Shown in pieces: positions 31,303-53,184 of a stretch of DNA of 64,000 bases (position 1 is its first letter; each line of letters begins with the position of its first letter). The notes under the pieces were generated by a model, which was not told the origin of the DNA, ran no database searches, and was given only the letters and a program-made list of their open reading frames with translations. Where the stretch lies: NCBI GenBank assembly GCA_003167365.1, contig PMTM01000006.1:764391-828390 (forward strand), in the 5' to 3' direction. The stretch is from Spartobacteria bacterium. GTDB lineage: Bacteria; Verrucomicrobiota; Verrucomicrobiia; Chthoniobacterales; UBA10450. A program made the position numbers and the translations under genes.

Positions 31303-32364
31303 ATGTTGGCCAAGATTTATTCCGCCGCTGTTTACGGCGTCGATGCCTACGAAATTGAAATTGAGGTCAATGGCGCGGGAGGCGATCCGAAAGTCATCAT
31401 CGTTGGATTGCCTGACACGGCGGTGAAGGAGAGCCGCGATCGCGTGACGACGGCGATTAGCAACAGCGCTTATCATTGGCCGCGCGGCCGCACGACCATT
31501 AATCTCGCGCCCGCCGACATCAAGAAAGAAGGGCCGAGTTTCGATTTGCCGATTGCGCTCGGGATGATTTCGGTTTGCGAAGAGATCGACAGCAAGCCAT
31601 TCGAGAACTTCAGTTTTGTCGGTGAGCTGGCATTGGACGGCGCGGTGCGCCCGGTCAAAGGCGTGTTGCCGATTGCGCTGGAGGCGAGGCGCCGGGGCAA
31701 GCGTGCTCTTTTCGTGCCGGAGGCGAACGCTCGCGAAGCCGCCATGGTGGACAAGATCGACATCTACGGCGTCCAGAACTTGCGGCAGACTTTTCAATTT
31801 CTCCGCGGCGAGCTTGCGCTTCTGCCTACGCGCGGCGATCTCACTGGATTTTTTTCCGCGCATCAAGATTACGACGTCGATTTCAGCGACGTGAAAGGTC
31901 AAAGCCACGTTAAGCGCGCGATCGAAGTCGCGGTCGCAGGTGGTCACAACATTCTTATGATCGGTCCGCCAGGTTCCGGGAAATCGATGTTATCAAAACG
32001 CATCGGCACGATTATTCCACCGATGTCGCTGGAAGAGGCGATCGAGACGACGAAAATCCACAGCATCGCGGGCCTGCTCGACAGCCAAAGATCTTTCGTG
32101 GCCTCGCGCCCGTTTCGTTCGCCGCATCACACCATTAGCGACATCGGTTTGCTCGGCGGCGGCGCCTTTCCCAGTCCTGGAGAAGTAAGCCTGGCCCATA
32201 ACGGCGTGCTTTTTCTCGACGAACTTCCCGAGTTCAAAAGATCGACACTGGAAGTGCTGCGTCAGCCCGTTGAGGATGGGAAAGTTACAATTTCGCGTGC
32301 GGCCGGCAGCCTGACTTTTCCATCCGAGTTCATGCTGGTGGCGGCGATGAATCCGTGCCCGTAG
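31303..32364 (+). pseudogene. yifB: YifB/ComM AAA+ helicase gene, interrupted after the AAMNPCP motif
   Basis: Start ATG 31303 gives [22 protein letters not shown], the usual YifB N-terminus; the frame is open from 31258. Intact parts are the Lon-like N-terminal fold ([34 protein letters not shown]) and the first half of the AAA+ domain ([21 protein letters not shown], Walker [28 protein letters not shown], Walker [11 protein letters not shown]). The frame stops 353 residues in, inside AAMNPCP, where the family continues with CG and ~150 more residues including the zinc and C-terminal regions. None of that is found downstream in the window, so insertion of foreign DNA is the likely cause. ComM helps branch migration during natural transformation; the fragment lacks sensor residues and should be inactive. 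Confidence 0.92.
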
Positions 32365-32452
32365 GGATTCAAGCGGGGGTGACATCGAGCATAAATGCTA
32401 TTCCGTCGATTGTGGGAACAGGAATTCTGCTCCGTTATGCTCAGATCTCGCT
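32360..32452 (+). repeat. Direct repeat A: element end at the yifB break point
   Basis: Begins CGTAGGGATTCAAGCGGGGG exactly where yifB similarity ends. It matches a second copy at 36453-36545 over about 93 bp with scattered substitutions and two small indels. Most simply, it is the terminus or attachment half-site of an inserted element. Confidence 0.75.
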
Positions 32453-32582: not shown

Positions 32583-33347
32583 ATGGCGCAAGTATTCGGA
32601 ACCTCGGGTCGCAACGCAACAGAACAGTCCCATCAACGTACAAAGCGATTGCTTGTCACGGGATTTGTAGGAATCGCGGCGCTAGCCGTTCTCGGCGGGT
32701 ACGCTCTTGGGGCAGCATTTCCGATTCGCGGATTCGTCCTCAGCTGGGTGCTGATCATTAACGCACTACTCGGCCTCCTCATATGGCTCATCGGCAAGTG
32801 GGCCACGGACAAGATCGACACGATAGATCGAGAACGAATCTCCTGGCGCAAAGGCGCTGTGGGCGAAGCGCTCGTCGCTGCGACCCTGACAGAACTGCCG
32901 GGCAATTTTGTTGTCGTCAACGATGTGTCGAATCGTTTCGGCAATATTGATCACGTAGTAATCGGCCCCACCGGTGTTTACATGATCGACGCCAAAAACT
33001 GGACAGGCTCAGTAAAAGCAGATGCTCAGGGAGAGCTGATGCTGAATGAAAAACCTCTCCCGAAGCCGCCGATCAAATCGCTTCTTGGGTCAGTGATGGA
33101 TTTTCAAAGCAAGCTCAAGGCGTTAACCGACGCAGACTATTTCGTTCGTGGACTGATGGTGTTTCCCAACGCGTACGTGGAAGCGAACTATGGCTCAACG
33201 CGCCAAATTCACTGCTTGCGAAATGAGCGATTGGGCGAGTATCTCCAGGACCAGGAATTTTCACGAAAACTTTCCCGATCCGACATCGACGGAATTAAGC
33301 GCGCAACTCTTCAACTTGCCGGAATGGACGAACGCTTCACCGTTTGA
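32583..33347 (+). CDS. Membrane-anchored NERD-domain protein
   Basis: 254 residues from ATG 32583 (frame opens at 32541). Two membrane helices lie near the start (LLVTGFVGIAALAVLGGYALGA and FVLSWVLIINALLGLLIWLIG). A NERD (nuclease-related) domain follows at ~95-220: GAVGEALVAATLTELPG, VVNDVSNRFGNIDHVVIGPTGVYMIDAKNWTGSV. The usual E-x-K of this fold reads D-A-K here. NERD proteins are presumed endonucleases related to PD-(D/E)XK enzymes and turn up in defence and mobile elements. It is the first gene after the yifB break and is followed by a repressor/peptidase pair. Confidence 0.8.
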   Translation: MAQVFGTSGRNATEQSHQRTKRLLVTGFVGIAALAVLGGYALGAAFPIRGFVLSWVLIINALLGLLIWLIGKWATDKIDTIDRERISWRKGAVGEALVAATLTELPGNFVVVNDVSNRFGNIDHVVIGPTGVYMIDAKNWTGSVKADAQGELMLNEKPLPKPPIKSLLGSVMDFQSKLKALTDADYFVRGLMVFPNAYVEANYGSTRQIHCLRNERLGEYLQDQEFSRKLSRSDIDGIKRATLQLAGMDERFTV

Positions 33348-33439
33348 ACGGCCTACGCAGGTCGTCCGCCGTCAAGACCAGCCTTTCTCCGCGCCGGAGC
33401 ACTTCCGGATGGGTATCGAGATAGACTTCGACTAGCGCG

Positions 33440-33474
33440 TTGACACCGAAGGGAAATACGCTATTTAGCGTATT
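33440..33474 (+). promoter_or_regulatory. Promoter and overlapping operator of the XRE gene
   Basis: A perfect -35 box TTGACA (33440-33445) is followed by a perfect inverted repeat AATACGCT-ATTT-AGCGTATT (33455-33474) that covers the expected -10 region and ends on the base before the ATG at 33475. Repressor binding here would block RNA polymerase; transcription would start close to the ATG, so the message may be leaderless. No ribosome site precedes the ATG. Confidence 0.75.
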
Positions 33475-33807
33475 ATGTCAGACGATATACTCAGCTTTGG
33501 TCGGCGGATCGCCAAAAGGCGGAAGGAGTTGGGATTTAGTCTGAAGGACGTATCAGACCGGGTTAAGAAAGAAGACGGGGAGTCAATATCTCCCCAATAC
33601 CTCAATGACATCGAACACGACCGGCGACAGCCCGATTCGGAACGTCTCATCGATCAATTAGCGCTCGCACTTAAACTCCCGGCGGAAGTGCTGTATTACG
33701 AGGCTGGAAAACTCGGAGATTCAACAAAGGCTCGGAAAGCCAGTGAGAAGCAGATCGTTGCCGCTTACAAGGCTTTCCGCCATACGCTGAAAGATCCCGG
33801 CAAATGA
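33475..33807 (+). CDS. XRE-family transcriptional repressor
   Basis: 110 residues. Helix-turn-helix of Cro/CI type at ~8-65: FGRRIAKRRKELGFSLKDVSDRVKKEDG...SPQYLNDIEHDRRQPDSERLIDQLALALKLPAEVLYYEAGKLG. The C-terminal 40 residues are a charged helix. Its stop overlaps the start of the ImmA/IrrE peptidase by four bases (ATGA), the classic repressor-antirepressor pair of mobile elements, in which the peptidase cleaves the repressor on stress. The operator overlapping its own start codon indicates autoregulation. Confidence 0.9.
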   Translation: MSDDILSFGRRIAKRRKELGFSLKDVSDRVKKEDGESISPQYLNDIEHDRRQPDSERLIDQLALALKLPAEVLYYEAGKLGDSTKARKASEKQIVAAYKAFRHTLKDPGK

Positions 33808-34514
33808 AGTACGTGCCGGATCGCACCGGTCGTTTTCCGAAGCGACCCCATTACGAGCCAGCTGAATTAGACCAAGAATGTGAGCACATCATCACTGATT
33901 TTATGCGCGATCATTGTGGTGGATTTCGGTTGCCGATACCGACCGAAGCGCTGACAAAGCTCATCGAGAAGGATGCCGAAGATCTCGATCTTTTCTCAGA
34001 TCTATCTGGAGAAGGTAGCGATGTCGAGGGTGTGACAGACTTCGTCGCCAAATGCAAACCGCGTGTGCGGATTTCCAGCACTCTGTCAAACCAGCGCGGT
34101 GAGAACCGTCTGCGGACCACTCTGGCGCACGAGTATGGCCACGTGAAGTTCCACGATTTTCTGTGGCAGGTTGAGGTAACAAACCAAAGACTCCATGCGC
34201 ATTTCGCGCCCGAGGCTTCGCCCAAGTGTCACCGGGGGCGAATCCTTAATGCCCCCTACTCCGATTGGATGGAATGGCAGGCGGGATACATATCAGGGAG
34301 CTTGCTGATGCCTGTCACTTCGGTACGCGGAATGGCCGCATCGTTTATGGAAACTTATAAACTTTTCGCGCCGGTGCCCTCGACGGCGAACGAAGCTGGG
34401 ATGCTTGTAGACTTGATCCATACCGCTTTTGCCGTCTCCATCGAAGCTGCCCGCGTCCGTTTGTTGAAGCTCAGTTTGCTAAGCTCCGTCGATCTGGGAC
34501 CACAACTGTTTTGA
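33804..34514 (+). CDS. ImmA/IrrE-family metallopeptidase
   Basis: 236 residues with zinc-peptidase motif HEYGH in RTTLAHEYGHVKFHDFL at ~110, preceded by a region (TDFVAKCKPRVRISSTLSNQRGENRLR) usual for this family, and a later WQAGYISGSLLMPVTSVRG helix that carries the third zinc ligand region in relatives. It is translationally coupled to the XRE gene. In ICEBs1 and Deinococcus, such peptidases cut the partner repressor and trigger element transfer or stress genes; here the likely substrate is the XRE protein next door. Length is usual; no damage seen. Confidence 0.88.
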   Translation: MKYVPDRTGRFPKRPHYEPAELDQECEHIITDFMRDHCGGFRLPIPTEALTKLIEKDAEDLDLFSDLSGEGSDVEGVTDFVAKCKPRVRISSTLSNQRGENRLRTTLAHEYGHVKFHDFLWQVEVTNQRLHAHFAPEASPKCHRGRILNAPYSDWMEWQAGYISGSLLMPVTSVRGMAASFMETYKLFAPVPSTANEAGMLVDLIHTAFAVSIEAARVRLLKLSLLSSVDLGPQLF

Positions 34515-34610
34515 TTTATTTTGCTTGTGCTTACGTCAATCAGCGGATACGCTTAATGACAGACGCGGATGAACCGTGTCCAAATCACTAACAACAAAGG
34601 AGAAAACTAT

Positions 34611-34913
34611 ATGAAGGAATACCAAGTAACCTGCATAACGAAACCGGATCGTTTCAACACGCACGAGCACATCACGCACATTGGCAATGTCGCCGGCAAG
34701 TGGAAGATCACACGCGAACTGGCCATCCAAAAAATCGAATCCAAGCAGGAGGCCTTTTTCACGGTTGATCGAACTTCCGGACGAAAGATGTATGTGGGCG
34801 TTGTGAGGGAGGCAGGCAAACTGCCTTTTCTGCGCACTCACGCGGACGGGAAATGGAACGACAACTTGCTGGCTCAAGCGGAATGCAACGGGTCGTGCAA
34901 ATTGATTGGCTAA
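34611..34913 (+). CDS. DUF3892-like small protein
   Basis: 100 residues from ATG 34611, preceded by a good ribosome site AAAGGAG; the frame extends upstream to 34569 but this start is better. The sequence MKEYQVTCITKPDRFNTHEHITHIG, then KITRELAIQKIESKQEAFFTVD, GRKMYVGVVREAGKLPFLRTHADGKWNDNLL matches the small DUF3892 proteins of unknown function that occur in accessory regions. It lies 96 bp after the peptidase gene and 63 bp before the zinc-ribbon gene, probably co-transcribed with the latter. Confidence 0.8.
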   Translation: MKEYQVTCITKPDRFNTHEHITHIGNVAGKWKITRELAIQKIESKQEAFFTVDRTSGRKMYVGVVREAGKLPFLRTHADGKWNDNLLAQAECNGSCKLIG

Positions 34914-34976
34914 TTGGGATTGGGGTGGCGAACAAAAATTGCTGCCCTATTCCATCAGGTAAAGGTTGTTGAACTA

Positions 34977-36038
34977 ATGACAGCTCCACTTTTCCGGGAA
35001 GGCGGGCCGTACAAAGTGCGGCGCACAGGCCACGAACAATACGAAATGAGTATTCCGCTCCCCACCGATTCCGAAGGACGCGTCGCTCGTGAGTGCCCAT
35101 CGTCAACCTGCTCGCCAGGGTACTTCAAAGTGAAATCGGGCACGGGCATTACCCAAAACCATACCGAAGCGTTTTGCCCGTATTGCCGTTTCGGTAGCGA
35201 GCCGGGTAAGTTTTTCACAAAAGGCCAGGTAGAATACGCCAAGTCCGTTATGAAGCGGGAAGCGGTAGCGGGCGTCGAGGGCATGATGCGTGATGCTTTC
35301 GGCATTGGTTCTTCAGGTAAGAAAACGATTGGGGACGGTCCGATAAAGCTGGAGTTCAGCATTAAACGAGGCAGCCCGCCGTCTGTTTATCGTCCTTTTG
35401 AAGAGGCGTTACAAAGAACGGTGATTTGTCCGAAGTGCGGATTGGATCACGGTGTTTTTGGCTTAGCCGTTTGGTGTCCAGATTGTGGCGAGGACATTTT
35501 CCTGACGCACGTGGAGGCGGAATTGCGCGTAATACAAACGATGTTGTCGGACATTCCTCGGCGGCGCAAGGATCTCGGCCCTCGGATCGCTGCACGAGAT
35601 GAGGAAAATTGCTTAGAAGATGTCGTCTCGGTCTATGAGGCAGTGCTGCGGGCCATAGTGGTTCGAGAGTTGAGGAACCGTGGAAAAACCATGGAGGAGA
35701 TTCAAGACACTCTTAAACGTCGCGTTGGAAACAAGCTTCAGAGCGTTCTGCTTTCACAGGAAACAGTAGAACAACTGCTAGGGCGAAGGTTATTTGAACC
35801 ATTCGAACAACAGGAAATTGATCGATTGCGGCAAACGTTTGAGAAGCGGCATCCAATCACGCACAACCTTGGCGTCGTTGACCGAAAGTACTTGGAGCGT
35901 CTACGAACGGCAGAACGCGAAGGCCGCGAAATCCGGGTAACACCAGGCGAGGTGTCGGATGCCATTAGCGTTGTCCTGAAGATTGTGACTGACCTGCATC
36001 GCCGCCTTTTCGATCTGACCGCAAATGGAACCGTATGA
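34977..36038 (+). CDS. Uncharacterised zinc-ribbon protein of accessory block
   Basis: 353 residues from ATG 34977 (open from 34914). Cysteine pairs: CPSSTCSPGYF and FCPYCRF in the first 90 residues, and a clean zinc ribbon CPKCGLDHGVFGLAVWCPDCG near 190-210. The rest is helical, with a basic region (LKRRVGNKLQSVLL) and an RHPITHNLG segment resembling HEPN-type helices (R-x4-H within KRHPITHN). No family was recognised. The stop overlaps the next gene by four bases (ATGA), so the two are translated together. Possible role in nucleic-acid recognition within the six-gene block; this is inference. Confidence 0.7.
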   Translation: MTAPLFREGGPYKVRRTGHEQYEMSIPLPTDSEGRVARECPSSTCSPGYFKVKSGTGITQNHTEAFCPYCRFGSEPGKFFTKGQVEYAKSVMKREAVAGVEGMMRDAFGIGSSGKKTIGDGPIKLEFSIKRGSPPSVYRPFEEALQRTVICPKCGLDHGVFGLAVWCPDCGEDIFLTHVEAELRVIQTMLSDIPRRRKDLGPRIAARDEENCLEDVVSVYEAVLRAIVVRELRNRGKTMEEIQDTLKRRVGNKLQSVLLSQETVEQLLGRRLFEPFEQQEIDRLRQTFEKRHPITHNLGVVDRKYLERLRTAEREGREIRVTPGEVSDAISVVLKIVTDLHRRLFDLTANGTV

Positions 36039-36298: not shown

Positions 36299-36573
36299 GC
36301 GGCTGACCGAGGATATCTGTTTTGCCTGGCGCAGAAAGACTCAAGAGGGGAGTAGGCCAATCTCCTTTACAAGAGCAGGCGCTTCAGACTATCCAGCGAT
36401 GCGCCCCTCATGATCGCAATCTCGTATCGCCGGGAAGATTCACTACCCATTGCGTAGGGATTCGAGCGGGGGTGACAGCGAGCATAAATGTTCTTCCGTA
36501 ATTGGAGGAACGGATCTCGACACCCTTATGCTTAGGTCTCTCGGAATCTCGAAAAGGAGATGTGGACGATTTC
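36299..36573. other. Intergenic stretch holding direct repeat B
   Basis: 275 bp between the DUF1883 gene and the convergent HEPN-like gene. It contains direct repeat B (36453-36545). On the minus strand a 25-codon frame ending SLDSLKRLLL begins at 36450, exactly beside the repeat, too short to call. No other gene, terminator or promoter was recognised. Confidence 0.5.
36453..36545 (+). repeat. Direct repeat B, second copy of element end
   Basis: CGTAGGGATTCGAGCGGGGG... matches repeat A (32360-32452) in the same orientation. Matching continues through AGCATAAATG, TTCCGT, TTATGCT and TCTC blocks. The flanking DNA on the left differs from yifB, so it marks either the left end of a second, related insertion or an internal attachment-like site. 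Confidence 0.72.
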
Positions 36574-37753: not shown

Positions 37754-38905
37754 TTGAAATCAAAGGGGATTCGAGCGGTAGTCTTGTTCGTGGCGGCTTC
37801 CCTAGCGCCTATAGCGCACGCGCAGTACTTGTTCACCGACATTGCCGACAGTAACAGCGCTTACAATTTTTTCGGCTCGGAGCCAGCAATCGCAAACACA
37901 GGCGCGGTTTCGTTTTATTCCCAACTCGACAATGGATCTGAGGGAATTTTTTTGTTCTCTAATGGCACCGTTACAACAATTGCGCAGACAGCCAATGGCT
38001 ATTCGTCGATAGCAGGTGATACCGCCATCAGCAATTCGGGTTATGTTACCTTCAACGCCATCCACGGACCAAGTGATGGCCTGTTCTTGAGTAATGGAGC
38101 AAGCACAACGACGATTGCACAACAGGACCAAAACTTCAGTTCGGTTGACAATGCGCCTGCCGTGAATGGCTCGAACACCGTTGCCTTCTTTGCAAATTTA
38201 ACAAATGGTGTTGCCGGAATCTACTCAGGAAACGGTAGCAATACGATCACAATCGCTGACTCAACTAGCGGTCGGTTCTCATTATTCAGCCACCCTTCCA
38301 TCAACGACGCTGGTTTCGTGGCTTTTGCGGCGAGTCAATCTTCGGGGGCCGGTGCCGAAGTTGTGCGAGGCAATGGCGGGTTCCTCACGACAATTGCAGA
38401 TACGTCGAGTTCGAGCGCGTTCAGCGCGTTCGGCGGAGCAGCATCTATAAACTCGGCGGGCGGTGTGGCATTCTCGGCAACGCTAAAGGCCGGCGGGCGC
38501 GCAATTGCGTTTGGAAATGGCATCTCTCAACCCACGATAATTGCTGATACAAATGGCGCTTTCAGTAATTTCGCGAACGAACCCGCCTTGAATGACAACG
38601 GGCAAATCGCTTTTCTCGCATACGAAAAAGGTTCAGGTGCGACCGGCATTTTTACAGGCCCTGATTTAATCACCAACAAAGTCATTGCGACCGGTGACCA
38701 ATTATTCGGATCGACCGTTGACGCTTTAAATTTTTTTATTCACGGAGAGAACAATGACGGTCAGATCGTATTCTATTACCATTTAACTAATGGAGTCCGC
38801 GGGATCGCCGTTGCCACTATCCCAGAACCTCGCACTTGGATTCTTTTATTCGTGGCAGCGACCTGTTTTTATCCGTGGCGACTTCGTCGTTCATTTTCTA
38901 AATAA
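37754..38905 (+). CDS. Exported PEP-CTERM repeat protein
   Basis: 383 residues. A signal peptide (IRAVVLFVAASLAPIAHAQ) is followed by seven or so ~45-residue repeats of the NxxGxVAF type (PAIANTGAVSFYSQLDNGSEGIFLFSNG, PSINDAGFVAFAASQSSGAG, PALNDNGQIAFLAYEKGSGATGIFTG), probably a beta propeller. It ends in IPEPRTWILLFVAATCFYPWRLRRS, a PEP-CTERM sorting tail: motif, hydrophobic helix and basic end. It should be exported and processed by an exosortase, typical of Verrucomicrobia and relatives. Odd as cargo beside a recombinase; it may be a resident gene trapped between insertions. Confidence 0.85.
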   Translation: MKSKGIRAVVLFVAASLAPIAHAQYLFTDIADSNSAYNFFGSEPAIANTGAVSFYSQLDNGSEGIFLFSNGTVTTIAQTANGYSSIAGDTAISNSGYVTFNAIHGPSDGLFLSNGASTTTIAQQDQNFSSVDNAPAVNGSNTVAFFANLTNGVAGIYSGNGSNTITIADSTSGRFSLFSHPSINDAGFVAFAASQSSGAGAEVVRGNGGFLTTIADTSSSSAFSAFGGAASINSAGGVAFSATLKAGGRAIAFGNGISQPTIIADTNGAFSNFANEPALNDNGQIAFLAYEKGSGATGIFTGPDLITNKVIATGDQLFGSTVDALNFFIHGENNDGQIVFYYHLTNGVRGIAVATIPEPRTWILLFVAATCFYPWRLRRSFSK

Positions 38906-38975: not shown

Positions 38976-40748
38976 CTATTTCCCCACTTCCGCGCGGCGT
39001 CGCAGGTACGCTTCATGCGCCTTAGCCGCGATGCAGCGACGACATTGGCCTTTGCGCGGATAAAATTCTTCCGCCGGAAACACATTGTTGCAGGCTGAGC
39101 AACGCCGCATTCCAGCCGGCACTGGATCAACAACTGTCAGCGCGAATGGAGTTGGGAGATGAATGGGCGGCGTCGAGAAACCCGCTCCAAGTTTCGCGGC
39201 GCTGGTCGCGTGTAAATCGTCGCGCAGTTTGAACGCGATGATCGAGCGATCTTTCACGTAAATTTCCGAGAACAGCGCGAGGATGATTGCCTTCTTTTCC
39301 TTCCGATTCGTCATCCGTTTGAATCGAAACGCTCCGCGGACGACTTTGCGGACGAGTTCTTCGGTGGATATGTCACGCTCGTCTTTTTGATCGGCCACGC
39401 GTCGATGCAATGACGCCATCTGCGTTTTGATCGTATCACGCCGGGTCCGCAATTCCTCCAATGTCATAGCGCCGACCTCGTACGCATCGAGTAGACGTTT
39501 ATCTTTTTGCTTTAGAGCTACGAGTTGCGATTCGCTGGTCGGTTTGGGGAACGGGTGGACGACTTCGCGAGTGCGTTGCAACGACTGATCGATGATTTGG
39601 GTTAGGGTGTTCGCATTCGTAAGCGTCTGGATCGCGAATGCTTCGATCAAACCGTCAACTTCGCGCTGACGAAGGTTGGGCTGTTTGCATCGGCCGAGCT
39701 CATCACAATAAGCGTAGTGGTTGCGTTTGCAGAAATATTGGCCTGAGCGGTTACCGCTCCGCCGTTTTCCCGATGAGCAATAAAATGGCTCGGCGCAATG
39801 GCCGCATCGGGCGACTCCAGTACCGTAGTTGTAGGCCCCATCTTGTTTTCGACTCTCCTGATGGTTGCGGCGCGTCTCGGTAATTCGCTGCTGAACAACG
39901 TTGAAGTCTTCCAGCGGGATGATGGGATCGATGATTTTTACCTTAATCACGTCATCCGGTGCGCGTTTTACCTTCACGCGGTAGAGTTTGCCGGTGCGAC
40001 TCACACGCTTCTCACCGCGCTTTTCTGAGATTATGCGCTCACCGGTCGCGTAGACGCGACGGGATAAAATGTTTCGGATCGTCCTGCCATTGAGGCCGAG
40101 CCGCCGTCCTAAGGCCGAGTAATTTCCGGTCTCGTTCAGAAATGCGCGGAAAATTTCGACGACATCTCGAGCCCGATCATTCCAGTACCACTTTTCTGTC
40201 GATCGCTCGTAGGAGAGACCCAGCGGGACGGTCAGGTAATTCGTCGGACATTTCGCGGTCCGGCGCTTGATTTCACAGGCCCCTTTTTGGCGCTCCTTAA
40301 TTAACTGGAGTTCATATCCTGAAATCGCGGATCTGATGTTTGCAAAAAGCGCCGAATCTTTGTTAGCCAGGTCATACTCGGTGTCGCCCGAGTATATAAT
40401 AGCGCCCGAATCCTTGAAAACCTGAAGGATGACATAGTCAGCGGGCTCAGTCGGCCGGAACAGTCGATCGAGATCTGCGACAACAAGCCCAATCCCGCGC
40501 GACACGATTTCTAGAATTTCGCGGATGTCTGGGTTGCGCAACATGTCAGACCCGGAGCCCGTGATCTCATAAATGCGCCGGCAGTGGAGATTCTTCCGCT
40601 GGATGGTTTCTTCGATTACCCGGCGCTGCCTCGCGATACCAGCGCGGTCATCGCGGGCTTGATCGGCAGTCGAAACGCGGATCAGGCCGACGACCTCACA
40701 AGGCGTCGATGTTTCGACGAACGGCGATGACTCGGGTTGAGCGGACAC
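38976..40748 (-). CDS. Large serine recombinase (site-specific integrase)
   Basis: 590 residues. Catalytic domain ~20-165 with the nucleophile Ser in VGLIRVSTADQ and the DRLFR motif in VVADLDRLFRPTEPAD. A recombinase domain follows (~185-300: NYLTVPLGLSYERSTEKWYWNDRARDVVEIFRAFL, GLNGRTIRNILSRRVYATGE), then zinc ribbon (ARCGHCAEPFYCSSGKR ... CKRNHYAYCDELGRCKQ) and a coiled-coil region (~400-470). A second small Cys cluster ends it (RRCSACNNVFPAEEFY, GQCRRC). Length and layout are those of phage- and ICE-type large serine integrases, which cut and join short att sites. It is preceded by a 72-residue gene and is divergent from the PolB operon. Confidence 0.95.
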   Translation of the reverse strand: MSAQPESSPFVETSTPCEVVGLIRVSTADQARDDRAGIARQRRVIEETIQRKNLHCRRIYEITGSGSDMLRNPDIREILEIVSRGIGLVVADLDRLFRPTEPADYVILQVFKDSGAIIYSGDTEYDLANKDSALFANIRSAISGYELQLIKERQKGACEIKRRTAKCPTNYLTVPLGLSYERSTEKWYWNDRARDVVEIFRAFLNETGNYSALGRRLGLNGRTIRNILSRRVYATGERIISEKRGEKRVSRTGKLYRVKVKRAPDDVIKVKIIDPIIPLEDFNVVQQRITETRRNHQESRKQDGAYNYGTGVARCGHCAEPFYCSSGKRRSGNRSGQYFCKRNHYAYCDELGRCKQPNLRQREVDGLIEAFAIQTLTNANTLTQIIDQSLQRTREVVHPFPKPTSESQLVALKQKDKRLLDAYEVGAMTLEELRTRRDTIKTQMASLHRRVADQKDERDISTEELVRKVVRGAFRFKRMTNRKEKKAIILALFSEIYVKDRSIIAFKLRDDLHATSAAKLGAGFSTPPIHLPTPFALTVVDPVPAGMRRCSACNNVFPAEEFYPRKGQCRRCIAAKAHEAYLRRRAEVGK

Positions 40749-40760
40749 AATTATAAAAAA

Positions 40761-40979
40761 TCAGTTCACGGGTTTTGCCACAATTGCCGGACCGGCTCTG
40801 CGTTGCGCCACGATCGCGGATGCGGCATCCCGAATGCGCGCGACATCGTCATCGGCGAGTGCTTCTGATAATGCTGCGATGAGCGCATCAATGCTCCGCT
40901 CTTCCTCCAGCGCAGATTCGACTAAACGCCGAACTAGCGGGGTGATAAGTTTTTCGTTAACGCTGTTTTGGTCAGACAC
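40761..40979 (-). CDS. Small helical protein coupled to the serine recombinase
   Basis: 72 residues, MSDQNSVNEKLITPLVRRLVESALEEERSIDALIAALSEALADDDVARIRDAASAIV..., two or three amphipathic helices and no DNA-binding motif that I can recognise. It starts the recombinase transcript and ends 12 bp before the recombinase ATG. Size and position suit a recombination directionality factor or a regulator, but this is positional inference only. Confidence 0.65.
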   Translation of the reverse strand: MSDQNSVNEKLITPLVRRLVESALEEERSIDALIAALSEALADDDVARIRDAASAIVAQRRAGPAIVAKPVN

Positions 40980-41078
40980 GTTGCGAATCTATGACCCCAG
41001 TTCGCAGTGTCTCTTGCTGCAAGCAGTCATCTTGCAGGCCGGAACAAGCTTGACCTACCGCGTAAGATTTTCTGCCTA

Positions 41079-42218
41079 ATGAACGATCCTACTGATTCCG
41101 ACTGGAACTGGTTCGCGAAGTTTCCTCATCGAGAAACGGGCAAGAAGCTACCTCGAAGTGCGGAAGACGAATTAATCCGCATGTGCGTCTGGGAATACGC
41201 GCGCGAGTGCAGACCGTTAGTCGAAGCGATCTCAAAATATCGTGACACCGTAAGAATTGGACAGCGAGCCCGTGAGGAGGCGGATGAGCTTGTCCAAGTC
41301 ATCGAGCGCATGGCGGGTCGTTTCAATTGGCGCTTTCTCTGTTCGCCGGATTTTCCGGACAAAGCTTGGTTAGACCTAAGTTCACGACGCTCGAATGCAT
41401 ATGCCGACTTCCCATTTGCGGAAAGAGCGTCGATTCGTCCAACGGATGTAACGATCGAAGTGAAGCATGGCAAAAGGACACGCCCACAAAAAGTCGATTG
41501 GTTGCCGACGCCGCCGCGTTTTTTCGGTGACCTAGGGAACTTTTTCAATAACAGAGATCCCGAAGTTCTGGGGCAGGTCAATCGATTCATCATCGAGGTA
41601 ATGACGGAACAGTTCCAGTGGTTTGGGGTTAGTGCTTTTCATTGTCTGGTAATTCCGGAGCAATTTTTTGAAGTTGTCGATCCGGAGGATTTAGCGGCAG
41701 CGTTGCGTAATCTATGCCACTCGCTTAACCGTCGGCGGCTCATACTAAATGAGCCTTCGAGCAGTCGATCGCATTATGCTTCCTATTTGGGTTGGCTTGC
41801 AACGATGCGTTTCGCGCATTTTTTCGACCGCAAGGAACAAAGGCAAAAAATAGCAGTGCTTAAAGAAGGACTCGTTTCCGGTAGGTTGGGGCGGAATGCC
41901 ACCGAGACAGCACTTGGATTTTTAACCAATCTCGGTCGAGCAGAGTTTCGCGCCAAGGCGGCAGATATCTATCGCAAAATGTTTAACCTCGGGTCAGACG
42001 CGGAACCAATTCATTTTCAAACTTTTGAAGAGATCGAGGCTGCAAGACGACAGCGTGCAACCGAAGACAGCTCGTTGGCGACTGTGAGAGTTCGGCAACA
42101 TGACAACAAGACCAAGATCCGAAGAGGATCAGGCAGTCGGCTCCGGCGAAATGCCGGAGGTAGTCGAACCAAATCAAACAAAGCAAAGCGCAGTGGTCGA
42201 AAAATACACCGGCGCTGA
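41079..42218 (+). CDS. Uncharacterised protein, first gene of PolB operon
   Basis: 379 residues from ATG 41079 (open from 41007). The N-terminal 120 residues are helical and charged (DELIRMCVWEYARECRPLVEAISKYRD); a W-L-P-T-P-P-R-F-F-G-D-L-G segment and a long helical region follow. The C-terminus is very basic (RRGSGSRLRRNAGGSRTKSNKAKRSGRKIHRR), suited to DNA binding. No family recognised. It is divergent from the recombinase pair with ~100 bp between starts, and its last 118 bp overlap the next gene in another frame. A role in replication or transfer is suggested only by context. Confidence 0.7.
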   Translation: MNDPTDSDWNWFAKFPHRETGKKLPRSAEDELIRMCVWEYARECRPLVEAISKYRDTVRIGQRAREEADELVQVIERMAGRFNWRFLCSPDFPDKAWLDLSSRRSNAYADFPFAERASIRPTDVTIEVKHGKRTRPQKVDWLPTPPRFFGDLGNFFNNRDPEVLGQVNRFIIEVMTEQFQWFGVSAFHCLVIPEQFFEVVDPEDLAAALRNLCHSLNRRRLILNEPSSSRSHYASYLGWLATMRFAHFFDRKEQRQKIAVLKEGLVSGRLGRNATETALGFLTNLGRAEFRAKAADIYRKMFNLGSDAEPIHFQTFEEIEAARRQRATEDSSLATVRVRQHDNKTKIRRGSGSRLRRNAGGSRTKSNKAKRSGRKIHRR

Positions 42219-42744
42219 CGTGCGTCGCAATCCCCACGAAGAATACAGTGGGATTCCCGTCGTTCAAACCACCGAGGAATCTACTCCAGCGGCGAGCCGC
42301 ATGAGTGTCGACGATCGGGGGTCGCTCACACCGGCCGAGCGTGCCGAGCTGGAATCAATTATGTTGCCTGCGCAGATCGAGGCGATTGAGGTTAGCCGCC
42401 GGTCGCGTGTCCAACGCCGCGCCAAAGCCAAGAAGGATATTCCAGAGTTAATCGCGGCGAATGCGGAGGAAATGATGGTGGAGGCGGTAAACAAACGCTT
42501 TTACTCGGCTAAAGGTGTGGCGACTTGGCTGGTCAACCATGGTTTGCATGAGCCAGTGCGAGTCTACAGCGCATTCGGCGCTGCCCTGGGCAGGCATGGA
42601 CTGAACTTGCCGTCCATGACCGTGAAAGGTCGTCGTTATAGCGACTTGGCCTGCATCGGATGGATTCAAGAGCAGAAGCGTTTGCGTCAAAGCACGATCG
42701 ACCAAATGGGAAACGATGTGCGGCACGCCGTCATCGCTGATTAA
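42100..42744 (+). CDS. Uncharacterised basic protein of PolB operon
   Basis: 214 residues. The first ~75 are polar and probably disordered; the remainder is helical and basic (RRSRVQRRAKAKKDIPELIAANAEEMMVEAVNKRFYSAKGVATWLVNHGL...). It overlaps the preceding gene by 118 bp in a different frame, which is long for a true pair, so the real start may lie later (for example ATG 42301 or 42361). The C-terminal half looks like a small DNA-binding fold (YSAKGVATWLVNHG ... VKGRRYSDLACIGWIQEQKRL). Function unknown; the next gene, 69 bp on, is the polymerase. Confidence 0.6.
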   Translation: MTTRPRSEEDQAVGSGEMPEVVEPNQTKQSAVVEKYTGADVRRNPHEEYSGIPVVQTTEESTPAASRMSVDDRGSLTPAERAELESIMLPAQIEAIEVSRRSRVQRRAKAKKDIPELIAANAEEMMVEAVNKRFYSAKGVATWLVNHGLHEPVRVYSAFGAALGRHGLNLPSMTVKGRRYSDLACIGWIQEQKRLRQSTIDQMGNDVRHAVIAD

Positions 42745-42813
42745 TCCACGCGCGCCGAAACCGGGCGGGAACTTCACACGAGTTCCCGCCCACAGGGCGC
42801 GATCACCCACGTT

Positions 42814-45312
42814 ATGGCAACCACAGAAACGGAGGACGAATCCGTCTACATCGGATTCGATACCGAATATCAACGTGTCGGCGACAAAAACTTCATCTTG
42901 TCGGCGCAGATTTTTGGCATCTGCCAGAACCAGACTTGGCAGGCGATCAAGTTTCTAAGTGACAAGCGGATGACTTTCGAAGAGGTCGTTAAGTGGGCAG
43001 TTGAGGAAGGGATTCGCGGCCGGGTACTGAAGCGTCGTCCCGCCAAGATTTATTTGTGCGCTCACTATTCGATTGCCGATATGTCGACGCTGCGGGAACG
43101 CGAACGCACTTTTCGCCAGATCGATTACTGCAAAAAGACGTTTGTAACAATTAGGGAGCCAATTCGAGTCCGTTACCATGATGAGAACCGCAACAAACAC
43201 GAGATAGAGGTGGTTCTTCGGGATCCATGGCTAATGGCTCCGGCTGGCAAACGTAAGCTGGAAGTCATCGGAAAGTATGTCGAACTCGAAAAGATCGACG
43301 TCCATCCATATGGGAAGGACGAGATGGGCCGGCTCCTTCGTGAGAATCAGGAGCTCTTTATCAAATATGCAATTGCCGACGCACAGATCGCCGCTGTTTA
43401 CACCCGCGAAATGGCGAGGTTCGCGAACGAATTCTTCGGTTCGTCCGAAGCTCCCGCAACCATCGGCGGCTGCGCGGTGAAGCTAGCGCTGCAATCTTGG
43501 AAGAAAGAGAAAATCGATCGTCATACCGTTCTCGGCACGAAACGGGTCAAGCGCGAAAAAGGCCGCTTCGATATTGTGCCGCTTCCCATTCGGCAGGATT
43601 ACGAAAATTTCGCGAAGAACGCGTTCGCGGGCGGCAGAAACGAAACCTATTGCTTTGGCCCTTCCCCGGAACGTGATTTTGTCGATCTTGACTTGGCTGG
43701 CGCGTACGTATCGGCGCTCGCGACCCTCGGACTTCCTCAATGGGACCGCCTGCGCTCCACCTGCAACCTGGACGATTTCCAACCCGATGTAATCGGGTTC
43801 GGTTTCGTAAGATTCAAATTTCCTCCAAGCACTCGGTTTCCGTGCATGCCGGTGCGGACCGAGACATCGCTGATTTTCCCCCTCCAAGGCGAATGCTATG
43901 CAACGGCCCCAGAGATTCTTCTCGCAAGAAAGCTCGGCGCGGAGATTGAAGTGCGTAGGGGTTGCGTGATGCCAATGGATTTTGGGTGTCGCCCGTTTGT
44001 TGCGATTTCGAAAGAAGTCGCGTTGGCGCGCGAGAAATTCAAAGCGCAAAGCGGTACGGGCTCGCTAATGGAGCAACTCGTCAAGACCGTTGGAAATTGC
44101 GTCTTTGGAAAACTCGCGCAGGCCATCCGGCCAAAACGTGTGTTCAGCACGAGGCTGATGGACATGGAAGAGATGAAGGAGTCACCACTTACGAATCCCT
44201 ACCTTGCCGCGTATGTGACAGGGTTCATTCGTTCGGTCCTTGGTGAGGTTCTTGCGGCAGTGCCGAAGGAGTGCCTGGTCATCTCCGCCACGACCGACGG
44301 TTTTCTGTCGGACGTACCTGAAAGCTTTATCAACCAGCTGACGGCGGGACCACTGTGTCGGATGTATGCAGCAGCTAGAGCGTTAGTCGCTGCCGATCAG
44401 CAGGTTCTTGAGCCCAAGCATCGTGCGCGGCAGGTAATGTCCTGGCGGACTCGCGGTCTGGCGACTCTTGATCACGATCCTGAAGAAGAGTTAATGCTCG
44501 CGCGCGCTGGTATCCGTACGCCGCAAGGTTCGCTCGAAGAACAAAACGAATTTATCGTCACTAAATTCGTCGGTCGCGAGTATGGAGAAACATTTGCCGG
44601 CGTACGTCTCCGCAATGCCCGGCAACTCTGCTTCGACGGCGGTGACTTCGTGTCGGAAGAGTCGGTCGTTCGGCATCGGATGGACTATGACTTCAAGCGG
44701 GTGCCGACTCGGATCGGAGAGCGGCCGATCAATGGCCAGCCGCACGTCTGCTTCGATACTGTCCCCGTGCAGGACGCAGCGCAGTTTGGACGACTGCGTG
44801 ATCGCTGGAAGGATTTCTACGAGCGATTTCAACAGCCGCTCAAGCGCGAACACGACTTTCGCGATTTCCAAGAGTTCCTCGCCATCAAGAAATCGGGAAA
44901 ACTACAATTGCCGCAGAAAGGCTCGGCTTTGTACGTAGCGCGAAAGATGTTCCTCGTCGCCTACACCCACTCCGAGTGGGGTCTCTCGTGCGAACTCTCG
45001 AACACGGAGCTGGCCCGAACTCTCTCCAAGGAGGGTTTCGCCACCGACGTGGGGGAAGTCGAAAACGCAAAACGACCGGAGACACCGCTCTACTCCAACT
45101 GCGTGGAGGCGACGGAAGAGGTCGAGAACTTTCTTGGGTTCGTGCAGCAACGCTTCCCAGGCTTCGAGCGCAGCGCACTTGTCGCTGCCCTTCCCGGTAC
45201 CGCTGCGGTCGGCGTGCCTAGTTTGGCGGTACCCGCGCCGCCGCACGGAAAAGGCCGAGCCGACGAAGTGCTGGAACCGGCCGAGTGCGCCTACGGCGGG
45301 GAGACTTCCTAG
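42814..45312 (+). CDS. Family-B DNA polymerase of a mobile element
   Basis: 832 residues. A 3'-5' exonuclease domain shows Exo I FDTEY (D16, E18), an Exo II-like AHYSIADMS and Exo III YAIAD. The polymerase domain shows motif A DLDLAGAYVSAL (D293), motif B KTVGNCVFG (K424, N428, G432) and motif C ATTDGFL (D495; the usual DTD is TTD here). The ~131-residue A-B and ~71-residue B-C spacings are close to those I remember for phi29 polymerase. About 340 residues follow motif C, much more than in phi29, with no recognised domain. Cellular replicases of bacteria are family C, so this is element-encoded. It is followed by a primase-like gene. Confidence 0.88.
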   Translation: MATTETEDESVYIGFDTEYQRVGDKNFILSAQIFGICQNQTWQAIKFLSDKRMTFEEVVKWAVEEGIRGRVLKRRPAKIYLCAHYSIADMSTLRERERTFRQIDYCKKTFVTIREPIRVRYHDENRNKHEIEVVLRDPWLMAPAGKRKLEVIGKYVELEKIDVHPYGKDEMGRLLRENQELFIKYAIADAQIAAVYTREMARFANEFFGSSEAPATIGGCAVKLALQSWKKEKIDRHTVLGTKRVKREKGRFDIVPLPIRQDYENFAKNAFAGGRNETYCFGPSPERDFVDLDLAGAYVSALATLGLPQWDRLRSTCNLDDFQPDVIGFGFVRFKFPPSTRFPCMPVRTETSLIFPLQGECYATAPEILLARKLGAEIEVRRGCVMPMDFGCRPFVAISKEVALAREKFKAQSGTGSLMEQLVKTVGNCVFGKLAQAIRPKRVFSTRLMDMEEMKESPLTNPYLAAYVTGFIRSVLGEVLAAVPKECLVISATTDGFLSDVPESFINQLTAGPLCRMYAAARALVAADQQVLEPKHRARQVMSWRTRGLATLDHDPEEELMLARAGIRTPQGSLEEQNEFIVTKFVGREYGETFAGVRLRNARQLCFDGGDFVSEESVVRHRMDYDFKRVPTRIGERPINGQPHVCFDTVPVQDAAQFGRLRDRWKDFYERFQQPLKREHDFRDFQEFLAIKKSGKLQLPQKGSALYVARKMFLVAYTHSEWGLSCELSNTELARTLSKEGFATDVGEVENAKRPETPLYSNCVEATEEVENFLGFVQQRFPGFERSALVAALPGTAAVGVPSLAVPAPPHGKGRADEVLEPAECAYGGETS

Positions 45313-45659
45313 CCGTGCAGTTGCCCTTTTCTCCAAAAAACGCTTCTTACGGAGCAGCGCTTCTCGGCTCTGGGAGAGCGGGCACGACCGGCAGCGTTCA
45401 AACCACGAAGCTGCCCCCTTCTTCGTGCTTTTTCGGGCCGGAAAGAAGCCACGAAAAGCCGCCGGGCTTCGTGTCTCTCGCGCCAACGGCGGGCTACGTT
45501 CGTTCCGAGAAAAGGACGACGCGCCCACGGTTCGCTCCGCAACATCGGCTCTACGGCGAGTTCCGTAACGACGGCACTTTTAAGATAAAGAAAACCGACG
45601 CACCTCTGGCTCGGTTGTACCAAACGCGAACGCAACGCCAGCGATTACAACCAACATAG
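45285..45659 (+). CDS. Possible small basic protein between PolB and primase
   Basis: A 124-codon frame that starts inside the end of polB (28-bp overlap) and stops four bases before the primase ATG, filling the 351-bp gap between them. The product is basic and Pro/Thr-rich (KPPGFVSLAPTAGYV, LYGEFRNDGTFKIKKTDAPLARL). Tight packing argues for coding; lack of any recognised fold and competing open frames on both strands argue against. If it is not a gene, the gap is untranslated. Confidence 0.35.
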   Translation: MRLRRGDFLAVQLPFSPKNASYGAALLGSGRAGTTGSVQTTKLPPSSCFFGPERSHEKPPGFVSLAPTAGYVRSEKRTTRPRFAPQHRLYGEFRNDGTFKIKKTDAPLARLYQTRTQRQRLQPT

Positions 45660-45663
45660 CTCC

Positions 45664-46575
45664 ATGAGAACGTCACCGAATCCTTCAAAGCCGTCTCCAA
45701 AAGTTGTCGTTTCGCGCGATAAAGATGCTGCGGAGCATCGGAGTCTGGAGGACGGACGACGCATCATCCGCTCGACGACACGACTGCTCGGGCAACCAGT
45801 CGTGCTCGTTTCGATGCATCCGCGTGCAAAGACACCGCGCTTTCGAAAGTTCCAGACCTTCACGCTCGACCTAATGCAGGACGAGCAGTTCATCGCCTGC
45901 ATCGGAAGACCTAACTGCAACGTCGCTGTGCTACTCGGCAAAGCGAGTAGAGGACTGTGCACGTTCGACTTCGACGACGATCGGAACGCAGAAATGTTTC
46001 TTCGGCTGAACGAGCCATTCCAAGAGACGCTAATGACCACCGCGCGACGCGGCCGGAACTTGTGGTTTGTTGTCGATGGCGAATACCCTCGCAGCTTCGA
46101 CGTAAGAGATGACGAGGGCCACAACTGCGTAGAGTTCCGAGCAGACGGACGGCTGACAATCATTTACGGCACGCACCCTTGCGGATACTCATATCGTTTG
46201 TTGCACAGGGCGTACCCGATCAGATGCAGATGGAGCGATGTGAATTGGCCGTTTGAGTGGGAGGAGCAACTACCTCGCACAAATGCGCCACGCGACATCG
46301 TTGATAGACTGCGATGTGCAGCGACCGAGGAATATCCGCAATCACCGCGGTTGGACTTCGCGAAACTCTCGAGCCTTGCACCTCGAAAGGACGGCTCCTA
46401 CAACGCACGATGTCCTGCTTGCGCCGAGCAAGGTCGAGACACTTTGGGAAATCACCTGATCATATTTCCAAACGGTTCATTTGCGTGCGTCATCTTCCCG
46501 CACAGCGTGAAAGGTTCGATAAAGCATCGGGCAACGACACAACGACTGGCCGGAACCGAAGGTCGCGGCCGCTAG
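45664..46575 (+). CDS. PrimPol-like archaeo-eukaryotic primase
   Basis: 303 residues. Residues ~55-190 resemble the bifunctional primase-polymerase fold: NCNVAVLLGKASRGLCTFDFDDD with metal-binding D102-x-D104, TTARRGRNLWFVVDGE (motif II, where the family usually has H for N), and VEFRADGRLTIIYGTHPCGYSYRL (motif III). A C-terminal zinc-binding segment follows (YNARCPACAEQGRDTL...FACVIFPH), like the CHC2-type finger of primases. It would lay primers for the adjacent family-B polymerase. No helicase domain is attached. The gene ends 12 bp before the convergent nuclease gene. Confidence 0.78.
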   Translation: MRTSPNPSKPSPKVVVSRDKDAAEHRSLEDGRRIIRSTTRLLGQPVVLVSMHPRAKTPRFRKFQTFTLDLMQDEQFIACIGRPNCNVAVLLGKASRGLCTFDFDDDRNAEMFLRLNEPFQETLMTTARRGRNLWFVVDGEYPRSFDVRDDEGHNCVEFRADGRLTIIYGTHPCGYSYRLLHRAYPIRCRWSDVNWPFEWEEQLPRTNAPRDIVDRLRCAATEEYPQSPRLDFAKLSSLAPRKDGSYNARCPACAEQGRDTLGNHLIIFPNGSFACVIFPHSVKGSIKHRATTQRLAGTEGRGR

Positions 46576-48524: not shown

Positions 48525-49080
48525 TGTGGATGTCGATGCTCTTTACGTTGTTTCAAGGGTCTGCGAACAGTGGCATTTATTGCTTGCAGTCGAAGACGCA
48601 ACGCGACCCTTAACAGCAGTGGAATCGCGGTTCGGCGATGGCTCTATCGCGTCGGACGGGATCTGAAATAAAAGGCGCGGGGGGCCGCTTTTCGGCTGGA
48701 GGGCTCATGACTGCAATAATTGAAAGTCTGCGCGGAAAGTCGAGAAGATTTCCGCCTTTTAGAAGCACACTTCCTCTGCGTTTGTATCACTCATAGGGAC
48801 GGGATGCATCTACGTCGCATTACGCTGGACTAACTTTTCAAAGACAGATATAACTTAGGCTTCAAATTGTTCTGGGGGGAACAAACGCCGCCCTTCACTG
48901 TTTCCCCATTGGTTCTTTGGGGGGCGGCGACTCTCTTTAAAGCCTATGCACGAGAAACCGTCTTGACGGACACGATCCTGCAGCACCGCGCCGATTGCGT
49001 CCGCGAGAGTCTTCGTGGTATTCTTACCGAACGGTGCGCGAGCCTCGACGCGCTGTTTCACCAACTATGACCTCCCAGCC
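48525..49080. other. Long divergent intergenic region (nuclease / SIR2)
   Basis: 556 bp that should hold both promoters. No confident gene: a 69-codon minus-strand frame (48855-49064) begins MVKQRVEARAPFGKN and a plus-strand 67-codon frame overlaps it, neither convincing. GC-rich hairpin potential exists around 48690-48760 (GGCGCGGGGGGCCGC). No tandem repeats seen. Confidence 0.45.
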
Positions 49081-50220
49081 ATGAAGTTCCTCGGCGTATC
49101 AGCCTCAAACGATTGGGCGTCTCTAAACCCAACCGAGAATCCAGACTTTGCTTCTGTTCGTTCGAGACTGGAGCGCGCTCTCTCGGATGTCATGCTGTCA
49201 GAAAACCTTATCGTTCTGACTGGCTTAGGCACTTCACTCTGCTTAAAAGATTCTAACGGGAAAGTTCTTGCGCCGACAATGAGCGATCTGTGGGACTCCG
49301 CAAAACAAAAAGCTGGAGAGCAGTTCGAATCTGTGAAGACCAAGGTTCATTACTCTGCGGCCGAGAGCGGTGACAACATTGAACATCTCCTTTCGCGTTG
49401 CCAAATGTCTGAAAAGTTAAATCACGACCCGGAGGTTGAAAAATTCGTTAGTGAAACCGAGGCCCTTATTGTGGAAAAGTGCCGGTTCGTCGATGCCGCA
49501 GTCAATCTAAGCGCTCACGAAGCATTCCTGCGAAAAATTGCGCGGCGTTCTACGCGATTACCACGCGTTGAACTTTTCACTACCAACTACGATCTCAGCT
49601 TTGAAGGTGCCGCGAGTAATTCCCGATTCATTGTTATTGATGGATTTTCTCATGTTCAGCCGCAGGAATTTGATGCCGCACTGTTCTCGTACGACCTAGT
49701 TCGGCGAAAGAACTCCAGCGAGCTTCCTGAATTCGTACCGAATGTGTTTCATCTCTATAAACTGCACGGCTCACTCGACTGGGAACGTCAAGAGGGGCGC
49801 GTAATTAAGGAGCCCAAGACGAAGAAACCACTCATTATTTTTCCACGCGAGAGCAAATTCGAATCATCTTACGATCAGCCATTTCTTGAATTGATGGCTC
49901 GGTTTCAATCTGGATTACGTGAAGCCAATACCGGATTGCTGATTATCGGCTACGGTTTCAACGATCATCACATAACGCAGCCGATCCTTTCCGCAATTAG
50001 ATCGAACATCGGTCTGAAGGCCATTATTGTTGATCCGGCTGCGGAGCAGTCGACTAACTCGATTTTAAGAAGTGCACGCGATCTCGTTTCGAACGGCGAT
50101 ACCCGCGTCTCCCTCGCCGCCGTGGATTTTGAACAACTCGTAACTTTTGTCCCGGATCTTGTTGCCGCGACCGAGGAAGAAACTCACCTTGACCGAGTTC
50201 GTAAAATTCAAGCGGGATGA
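49081..50220 (+). CDS. SIR2-family NADase, SIR2-HerA defence system
   Basis: 379 residues from ATG 49081; the frame opens at 49015. SIR2 motifs: IVLTGLGTSLC (nucleotide loop), LFTTNYDLSFE (T-x-N-Y-D), the LYKLHGSLDW with catalytic His, IIFPRESKF and LLIIGYGFNDHHI. Proteins of this class act as NAD+ hydrolases in anti-phage systems, killing or halting the cell upon infection. Its stop overlaps the start of a HerA-type ATPase gene by four bases (ATGA), the arrangement of the known SIR2-HerA system in which both form a large complex. The call of the family is strong; activity is inferred. Confidence 0.92.
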   Translation: MKFLGVSASNDWASLNPTENPDFASVRSRLERALSDVMLSENLIVLTGLGTSLCLKDSNGKVLAPTMSDLWDSAKQKAGEQFESVKTKVHYSAAESGDNIEHLLSRCQMSEKLNHDPEVEKFVSETEALIVEKCRFVDAAVNLSAHEAFLRKIARRSTRLPRVELFTTNYDLSFEGAASNSRFIVIDGFSHVQPQEFDAALFSYDLVRRKNSSELPEFVPNVFHLYKLHGSLDWERQEGRVIKEPKTKKPLIIFPRESKFESSYDQPFLELMARFQSGLREANTGLLIIGYGFNDHHITQPILSAIRSNIGLKAIIVDPAAEQSTNSILRSARDLVSNGDTRVSLAAVDFEQLVTFVPDLVAATEEETHLDRVRKIQAG

Positions 50221-51938
50221 CTACCGCGTTGCCAATTTATCCGTTCGAGCATCAGCGGTGCATCGGAACGATATGTGAAGTTGGACCCAGTTCGGCAAAG
50301 GTGAATTTGCCTTATGCGGCGTCTCTCGATGGCCAATGGCTATACGGAAATCGATTGGGTGCCGGTGAGGTCGGAGAATTCATCATTATCGAATCCGGAG
50401 ATACAGGAATATTTGGGAGGCTTGTCAGTATAAAACTTCCAGAGCGCGACCGGTTATCTGTTGAACCTGGTTCCGGTAAACACGACGCCCACCCGATTGG
50501 CACAGCGCAATTGCTCACAACAATCGCGTTGAAAAATGGCGAAGTAACGGGTGGGATTGCACAACATCCCCGACTTGGTAGCTGCGTATATGCAGCACAT
50601 CCATTGCTATTGAAATGGCTTGCAGAGAGAACTGGCAGTGGGAATCCGACCGTAGTTTTTGAGCTAGCTACCTTGCCATCTGCAGGTGAAATCCCCGTAA
50701 TTTTTACACCAGAGCAATTGTTCGGACATCACTGCGCGATACTTGGAGCGACCGGAGGAGGCAAGAGTTGGACGATCGCCCGAATTCTCGAACAGGCAAT
50801 GAAGCAAAACGCTAAGGTTATCTTATTTGATGCGACGGGTGAATTTCACACGCTCGGATCGGGAGTCCACAATGTCTACGTTGGCGCAACTTCTGCGCCC
50901 GAGGCCTTAGCTACAGAAGTGGTGGTTCCTTATTTCCAGCTCACGGAAGCTGACCTTTTCGCGTTATTTAAACCCAGCGGACAAACCCAAGCGCCCAAAC
51001 TTAGGGCTGCGATGAAGAGTTTGAAACTGGCCAAAGTAGATCCCAATTTGGCGTCGGAGGGTGTGCTTGTGAAAGTAAACAAGAATCGAGCGGCTTTCGA
51101 ATCGAGTAATCGAACACACGCTACGACGCTTGAAAACCCGCAAGCAGATTTCGATATTTCGAATTTAGTCCGCCAAATTGACGCTGAGTGTGTGTGGCCA
51201 ACGAGCCAACGCGACTCTTCGAGCTGGGGCGGACCGGACGAACAGGCTCGAAGTTATTGCGTAACGCTACTCGCCCGGATTGAAGACATGCTTCAATCAA
51301 ACGAAATGGCCTGCATTTTTCAACCTGTGGGTAAGCGATCGTTATTTACTGAGATTGAGCAATTTCTCTCCAGGGACAATGAACCAGTGATGCGAATCTC
51401 GATGAAATTTCTCAGCTTCCAGCAAAATGTTAGAGAAATTGCCGCTAATGCCGTCGCGCGCTCACTGCTGACATTGGCTCGTCAATCGCGGTTCGAAAGT
51501 CGTCCAACGTTGGTAATCCTGGACGAGGCCCATCAATTCTTAAATAAGTCGTTGGGTGATGAAAGTAATAGATACGCGTTGGAAGCATTCGGGCTCATAG
51601 CAAAGGAAGGCCGAAAGTTCTGTTTGACCATCTGTATTGCTACTCAGCGCCCACGAGATATTCCTGAAGATGTTCTGAGTCAGATGGGCACGTTGATAGT
51701 TCATAGACTTACGAATGACCGAGATCGAGAGGTCGTAGAGCGTGCTTCCGGTGAGATTGACCGGACAGCGGCAGCATTTCTTCCGACACTTGCTCCTGGG
51801 CAGGCAGTAATCATCGGCGTTGATTTCCCCATTCCTCTAACAATTCAAATCTGCAAACCTCAGCATGAACCAGATTCTAGAGGGCCAAATTATCAAACAT
51901 GCTGGGACGCATCGGCTACGTCGCCATCGGAATCGTAG
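50217..51938 (+). CDS. HerA-type ATPase of SIR2-HerA defence system
   Basis: 573 residues. An N-terminal HAS-barrel (~1-110: YPFEHQRCIGTICEVGPSSAKV ... GIFGRLVSIKLPE) precedes a FtsK/HerA ATPase domain with Walker A GATGGGKSW, the FDATGEFHTLG strand and Walker B LVILDEAHQFL, followed by CIATQRPRDIPEDVLSQMGTLIVHRL and a C-terminal PGQAVIIGVDFPIPLTIQI strap. It forms hexameric DNA translocases in relatives; with SIR2 it builds an anti-phage complex. Coupled by ATGA overlap to the SIR2 gene. No truncation seen. Confidence 0.93.
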   Translation: MTTALPIYPFEHQRCIGTICEVGPSSAKVNLPYAASLDGQWLYGNRLGAGEVGEFIIIESGDTGIFGRLVSIKLPERDRLSVEPGSGKHDAHPIGTAQLLTTIALKNGEVTGGIAQHPRLGSCVYAAHPLLLKWLAERTGSGNPTVVFELATLPSAGEIPVIFTPEQLFGHHCAILGATGGGKSWTIARILEQAMKQNAKVILFDATGEFHTLGSGVHNVYVGATSAPEALATEVVVPYFQLTEADLFALFKPSGQTQAPKLRAAMKSLKLAKVDPNLASEGVLVKVNKNRAAFESSNRTHATTLENPQADFDISNLVRQIDAECVWPTSQRDSSSWGGPDEQARSYCVTLLARIEDMLQSNEMACIFQPVGKRSLFTEIEQFLSRDNEPVMRISMKFLSFQQNVREIAANAVARSLLTLARQSRFESRPTLVILDEAHQFLNKSLGDESNRYALEAFGLIAKEGRKFCLTICIATQRPRDIPEDVLSQMGTLIVHRLTNDRDREVVERASGEIDRTAAAFLPTLAPGQAVIIGVDFPIPLTIQICKPQHEPDSRGPNYQTCWDASATSPSES

Positions 51939-53121: not shown

Positions 53122-53184
53122 ACGGACGATGACCCAGAATCACGCAATGCAGCGTCGGATGACCGACGATGAGTCTCGCCGCGG

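Follow-up and report, generated by a model that had tools for sequence, protein, structure and literature searches.

The window, i.e. the whole stretch of 64,000 nucleotides that was analysed, is part of contig C1 in a 3.1-Mb Verrucomicrobiota genome (G000). It contains a group of genes in the order integrase and 72-aa protein on the minus strand, followed by a 379-aa protein, a 214-aa protein, a family-B DNA polymerase (PolB) and a primase on the plus strand. The first-pass annotation had described these genes as running leftward and rightward in this manner, and all the reading frames were found to be open. The integrase is a large serine recombinase (LSR) of 590 aa (38976..40748) with Resolvase, Recombinase and Zn-ribbon domains, the Zn-ribbon match lying under the Pfam cut-off, and with a C-terminal Cys4 tail. 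It matches the phage integrase family phrog_95 (4e-51), and no counterpart was found in annotated phages. The 72-aa protein (40761..40979) lies 5' of the LSR in the same orientation and is, speculatively, a candidate directionality factor. Neither the 379-aa protein (41079..42218; 403 aa if started at the upstream GTG at 41007) nor the 214-aa protein (42100..42744) has a Pfam match. PolB (832 aa, 42814..45312) is followed by an ORF of 124 aa (45285-45659, plus strand) and by the primase (45664..46575). The 124-aa ORF, which the first-pass annotation had counted with the other genes, is present as a reading frame; it has no homologue in the related locus L007 and may not be a gene.

Locus L007 belongs to a genome of a different genus in the same family (G038), on a contig named Spartobacteria. 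The LSR, the 379-aa and 214-aa proteins, PolB and the primase are kept there in the same order and on the same strands at 27-64 % identity (27 % for the 379-aa and 46 % for the 214-aa protein), a recurrence that is more than chance, and the 72-aa protein has a weak counterpart (E 0.006). The genes flanking the unit are not alike in the window and in G038, and the unit has therefore been inherited or moved as one. The 379-aa protein showed no homology to the middle gene of loci L017-L019. In L007 the polymerase shifts frame near residue 50 (9763-9894 versus 9875-12121), the start of the gene being either broken or misassembled.

Polymerase and primase

PolB carries the ExoI, ExoII and ExoIII motifs and the Pol A, B and C motifs, and it had no match to a Pfam family. 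It was aligned with related polymerases to give a set of 58 sequences, including that of an E. coli pipolin (near tRNA-Leu) and those of Staphylococcus and Fusobacterium plasmids. In motif C, the residues T494, D495 and G496 are invariant or nearly so throughout this set (56-58 of 58 sequences), giving the pattern (T/V)TDG, and not one of the sequences has the first Asp at the motif C consensus position. Primer-independent family-B polymerases (piPolBs) are known to lack this first Asp (PMC7544198). The top database matches are plasmid polymerases from Staphylococcus, Fusobacterium and Pseudosulfitobacter, the Staphylococcus matches including plasmid NC_005006; S. epidermidis plasmids have been named as pipolins in published work. 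Genome contigs yielded 52 relatives when scanned, with Vibrio, Photobacterium, Aeromonas, Ruegeria and Brucella represented. In the polymerase tree the window sequence is nested within loci of E. coli, Vibrio, Aeromonas and Rhodobacterales, the deep branching being weak with a single phage outgroup. The best PDB match to the predicted fold is phi29 polymerase, and a sequence search of solved structures gave nothing convincing. No close relatives were found in viral contigs with the single sequence as query, and a search with the alignment returned one contig (L073).

Judged by its sequence, PolB is a member of the piPolBs, and by family it would be primer-independent. Since piPolB is the sole defining feature of a pipolin (PMC9710591), the motif C without the first Asp, the placement in the tree and the best matches together make the element a pipolin, i.e. 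an element of a known kind. The first-pass annotation had placed it outside both casposons and pipolins, mainly because known pipolins have tyrosine recombinases, and this classification is not upheld. A categorically new class of self-replicating element would be suggested by the combination of an LSR, a separate Prim-Pol-type primase and uncharacterised proteins, which is unreported in the part of the pipolin literature covered; we regard such a class as very improbable, as both the polymerase motifs and the tree place PolB among the piPolBs and it is piPolB alone that defines a pipolin.

The primase has a putative stand-alone Prim-Pol-type domain and a zinc-finger-like C-terminal part, without a helicase. 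It matches phrog_1156, annotated as 'DNA primase' (E 4e-9), and shares 34 % identity over residues 35-204 with a protein that combines a PF09250 Prim-Pol domain with D5_N and a P4-type helicase. It had no direct match in Pfam, PF09250 included, none was found in annotated phages, and a sequence search of solved structures gave nothing convincing. The structure model was uninformative (pLDDT 32). The primase and the 379-aa and 214-aa proteins are common only to the two closest relatives, the window and G038. A survey of PolB homologues for co-occurring genes, as proposed in the first-pass annotation, gave a divided answer: the full gene set does recur in a small lineage, but a widespread new class did not emerge, as most PolB relatives are without this LSR family and nearly all are without the primase.

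Proposed integration into comM

The first-pass annotation needs correction on the extent of the element, as the unit is nested in a larger island that begins at a break in the host gene comM/yifB, at 32,360. The 5' part of comM (31303..32359, plus strand) ends in ...AAMNPCP, and after the codons for NPCP the sequence is foreign. At the outer left boundary of the island lies attL (32349..32366, plus strand), with the comM core AATCCGTGCCCGTAGGG; its partner attR, GATCCGTGTCCGTGCGG, is located on another contig of the same genome (G000:C7, about 10342). The sole Mg_chelatase_C domain of the genome is also on that contig (C7:10511-10804). When the two comM parts were joined at the shared core, an intact ComM of 511 aa was obtained, colinear end to end with intact ComM of same-family relatives at 79-86 % identity. 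The predicted attB in comM covers about 60 bp around AATCCGTGTCCGTGCGG. We infer the join of C1 to C7 from the single comM and from repeats common to both contig ends. The right end of C1 and the left end of C7 (L075, L076) share repeat families of roughly 55-150 bp, which probably caused the assembly break.

The comM gene is cut at the identical codon, NPCP|CG, in five genomes with the LSR (G000, G038, G384, G460 and G395). In G395, where the island is 28.7 kb, the LSR reading frame reaches the comM break. Of the checked genomes that lack the LSR, 27 (G334 and 26 others) have an intact gene, as against none of the five that carry it (Fisher p 5e-6, a value that ignores relatedness). One further genome among those checked has a frameshift at another place in comM, and no comM match was obtained in two. 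In G460, a short additional comM copy (residues 346-371) occurs just 3' of the comM 3' part (G460:C1:4080764-4080841; L082, L084). The island of the window is flanked by attL and attR with a shared comM core, and relatives have the gene intact. Position strongly supports integration into comM by this LSR, which is most likely the enzyme responsible.

The distance between the comM break and the LSR of the window is 6.6 kb, and a search for att-like sites beside the LSR gave no significant one. At the 3' end of the LSR (about 38.91 kb) the best alignment was 17 nt with gaps, outside the top windows, and this candidate was rejected. The tRNA-Thr at 54024 had also been considered as an attachment site and was set aside after the comM split was found.

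Island size and cargo

The islands in comM range from about 29 to 208 kb, with about 60 kb for the window, 80 kb for G460 and 208 kb for G384, the last with two piPolB units and a separate LSR for each. A direct repeat of 47 nt has its left copy on the element side of attL (32360..32406, plus strand) and a second copy, 91 % identical, at 36453..36499 (plus strand); shuffled sequences gave no chance match. The second copy is a candidate internal junction of an earlier insertion, and the pair is a possible sign of tandem insertions.

Pipolins have reportedly been described, in a 2024 survey, as reservoirs of defence genes. Inside the comM island of the window there is a complete SIR2-HerA defence pair (49015..51938, plus strand; PADLOC SIR2 3.5e-96, HerA 7e-180), and the cargo of L007 includes the Lamassu gene LmuB. 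Defence-like genes were also seen at 32541-36038 and 52270-58448, i.e. a NERD nuclease, an HTH protein with an ImmA/IrrE-type peptidase, PDC-M14A-like and PDC-S31-like (DUF2971) genes, an AbiU2-like HEPN protein and a STAND-NTPase/TPR protein of 1435 aa. A repeat-rich protein with a PEP-CTERM-like end is encoded between the comM break and the LSR (37754-38905).

The D1 repeats and the contig breaks suggest a decaying mosaic, and the locus could be the dead remnant of an old insertion, with a polymerase and an integrase that no longer replicate or move. That a closely similar copy was not found and that the L007 polymerase frame is broken near its start would agree with this. Yet all the window genes are open and the catalytic motifs are intact at high divergence from relatives, which indicates selection until recently, and we consider a dead remnant unlikely.

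Association of the integrase with piPolB

Five loci, distributed over four Verrucomicrobiota genomes, have the LSR adjoining piPolB. Of 388 genomes of the phylum, four have the LSR and four a full-length piPolB, three genomes having both (chance 2e-6). The Cys4 zinc-finger-like tail of the LSR (38976-39100) occurs in the piPolB-linked integrases, is absent from the G395 integrase, and resembles endonuclease VII-type motifs (phrog_1035, 1.7e-5). The LSR family is present in each island searched, and no other large serine recombinase was detected there, the G038 island not being in one assembled piece. The recombinases detected in the searched island of the window were the LSR and a small serine resolvase, without any tyrosine recombinase. 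About half of the piPolB loci other than the five with this LSR have a tyrosine recombinase nearby; recombinase detection here means similarity to a few queries.

An arrangement in which the LSR is part of a comM island that merely houses a separate piPolB element, the two being neighbours and not one mobile unit, has several observations on its side. G395 has the LSR and a split comM with no piPolB detected, showing that the LSR is not dependent on piPolB; G334 has piPolB and lacks the LSR; the islands are large mosaics; and the LSR of the window is away from the comM break. Against this, the divergent pairing within about 2.5 kb is kept in all five loci, even though the LSRs are down to 26-31 % identity to that of the window, the five LSR-linked piPolBs form one clade in the polymerase tree (SH-aLRT 99), and in G384 each of the two piPolB units has an LSR of its own. 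We therefore find such a chance neighbourhood rather improbable. The proposals of the first-pass annotation that the genes act as one unit, and that this unit is an integrative element combining a large serine integrase with a PolB of its own, are both well supported by the recurrence in another genus, the adjacency of LSR and PolB in five loci and the exact split of comM.

Discussion

We consider it likely that the locus is a Verrucomicrobiota pipolin in which a large serine integrase takes the place of the usual tyrosine integrase, and which integrates at comM and would be replicated by its piPolB. It is similar to the pipolins of E. coli, Vibrio, Rhodobacterales and the Staphylococcus plasmids in having a piPolB with exonuclease motifs and a TTDG motif C, in being integrative and in its variable cargo. 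The integrated pipolins of the published work covered have tyrosine recombinases and frequently occupy tRNA genes, those of E. coli being located in a Leu-tRNA gene, whereas the window element has a large serine integrase and is located in comM. A further difference is the extra stand-alone Prim-Pol-type primase, found in the window element and one other genome only. Casposons are also integrated elements with a family-B polymerase of their own, but they are integrated by Cas1, and the unit described here has a serine integrase and no Cas1 among its genes.

The comM gene is already a much-used LSR target and as such is not new. In the parts of the literature covered, Mg-chelatase/comM is the target of 12.4 % of predicted site-specific LSRs (PMC10083194) and of sr1WO, the large serine recombinase of phage WO (PMC9203015). 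These LSR elements split the same gene as the window element does, but the parts of the two papers covered do not mention piPolB, to which the window LSR is tied, and the link of comM targeting with piPolB appears to be new.

A comparable arrangement occurs in Rhizobiales, where in five piPolB loci (L029, L031, L065, L068 and L072) a broken comM lies immediately next to a large serine recombinase. The likeness is in the combination of piPolB, LSR and broken comM. These LSRs are only distantly related to the Verrucomicrobiota LSR family and form a separate clade, and the breaks are at about codon 30 or 216, unlike NPCP|CG. Three of the five loci also have a tyrosine recombinase, and either enzyme may be the mover there.

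In the mechanism we propose, the LSR would recombine a circular element with comM at the NPCPCG codons, splitting the gene, and excision would restore comM and yield the circle again, possibly, as a speculation, with the aid of the 72-aa neighbour. The piPolB would copy the circle and, by its family, could start DNA without a primer, while the Prim-Pol-type primase and the 379-aa and 214-aa proteins may assist replication in the window lineage. The sizes of the islands and the presence of two units in one of them are observed; repeated insertion at comM together with capture of defence genes may have been the process by which they became large.

A serine integrase with a codon-resolved site provides a directly testable recombination system for pipolins, whose movement is so far unproven, and a primase beside a polymerase that is expected to need none poses a clear biochemical question. 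The serine-integrase variant extends pipolins to another integration route. A wider proposition, to which we would give even chances, is that piPolB elements have been paired on two or more occasions, in Verrucomicrobiota and in Rhizobiales, with distantly related LSRs that break comM, so that a self-replicating lineage systematically disables a host transformation gene, the Prim-Pol primase having been added in one Verrucomicrobiota lineage. Loss of ComM would be expected, by analogy, to lower transformation. It has been argued that mobile elements break comM and thereby block transformation (PMC4774983), and the variant described here ties pipolins to this idea.
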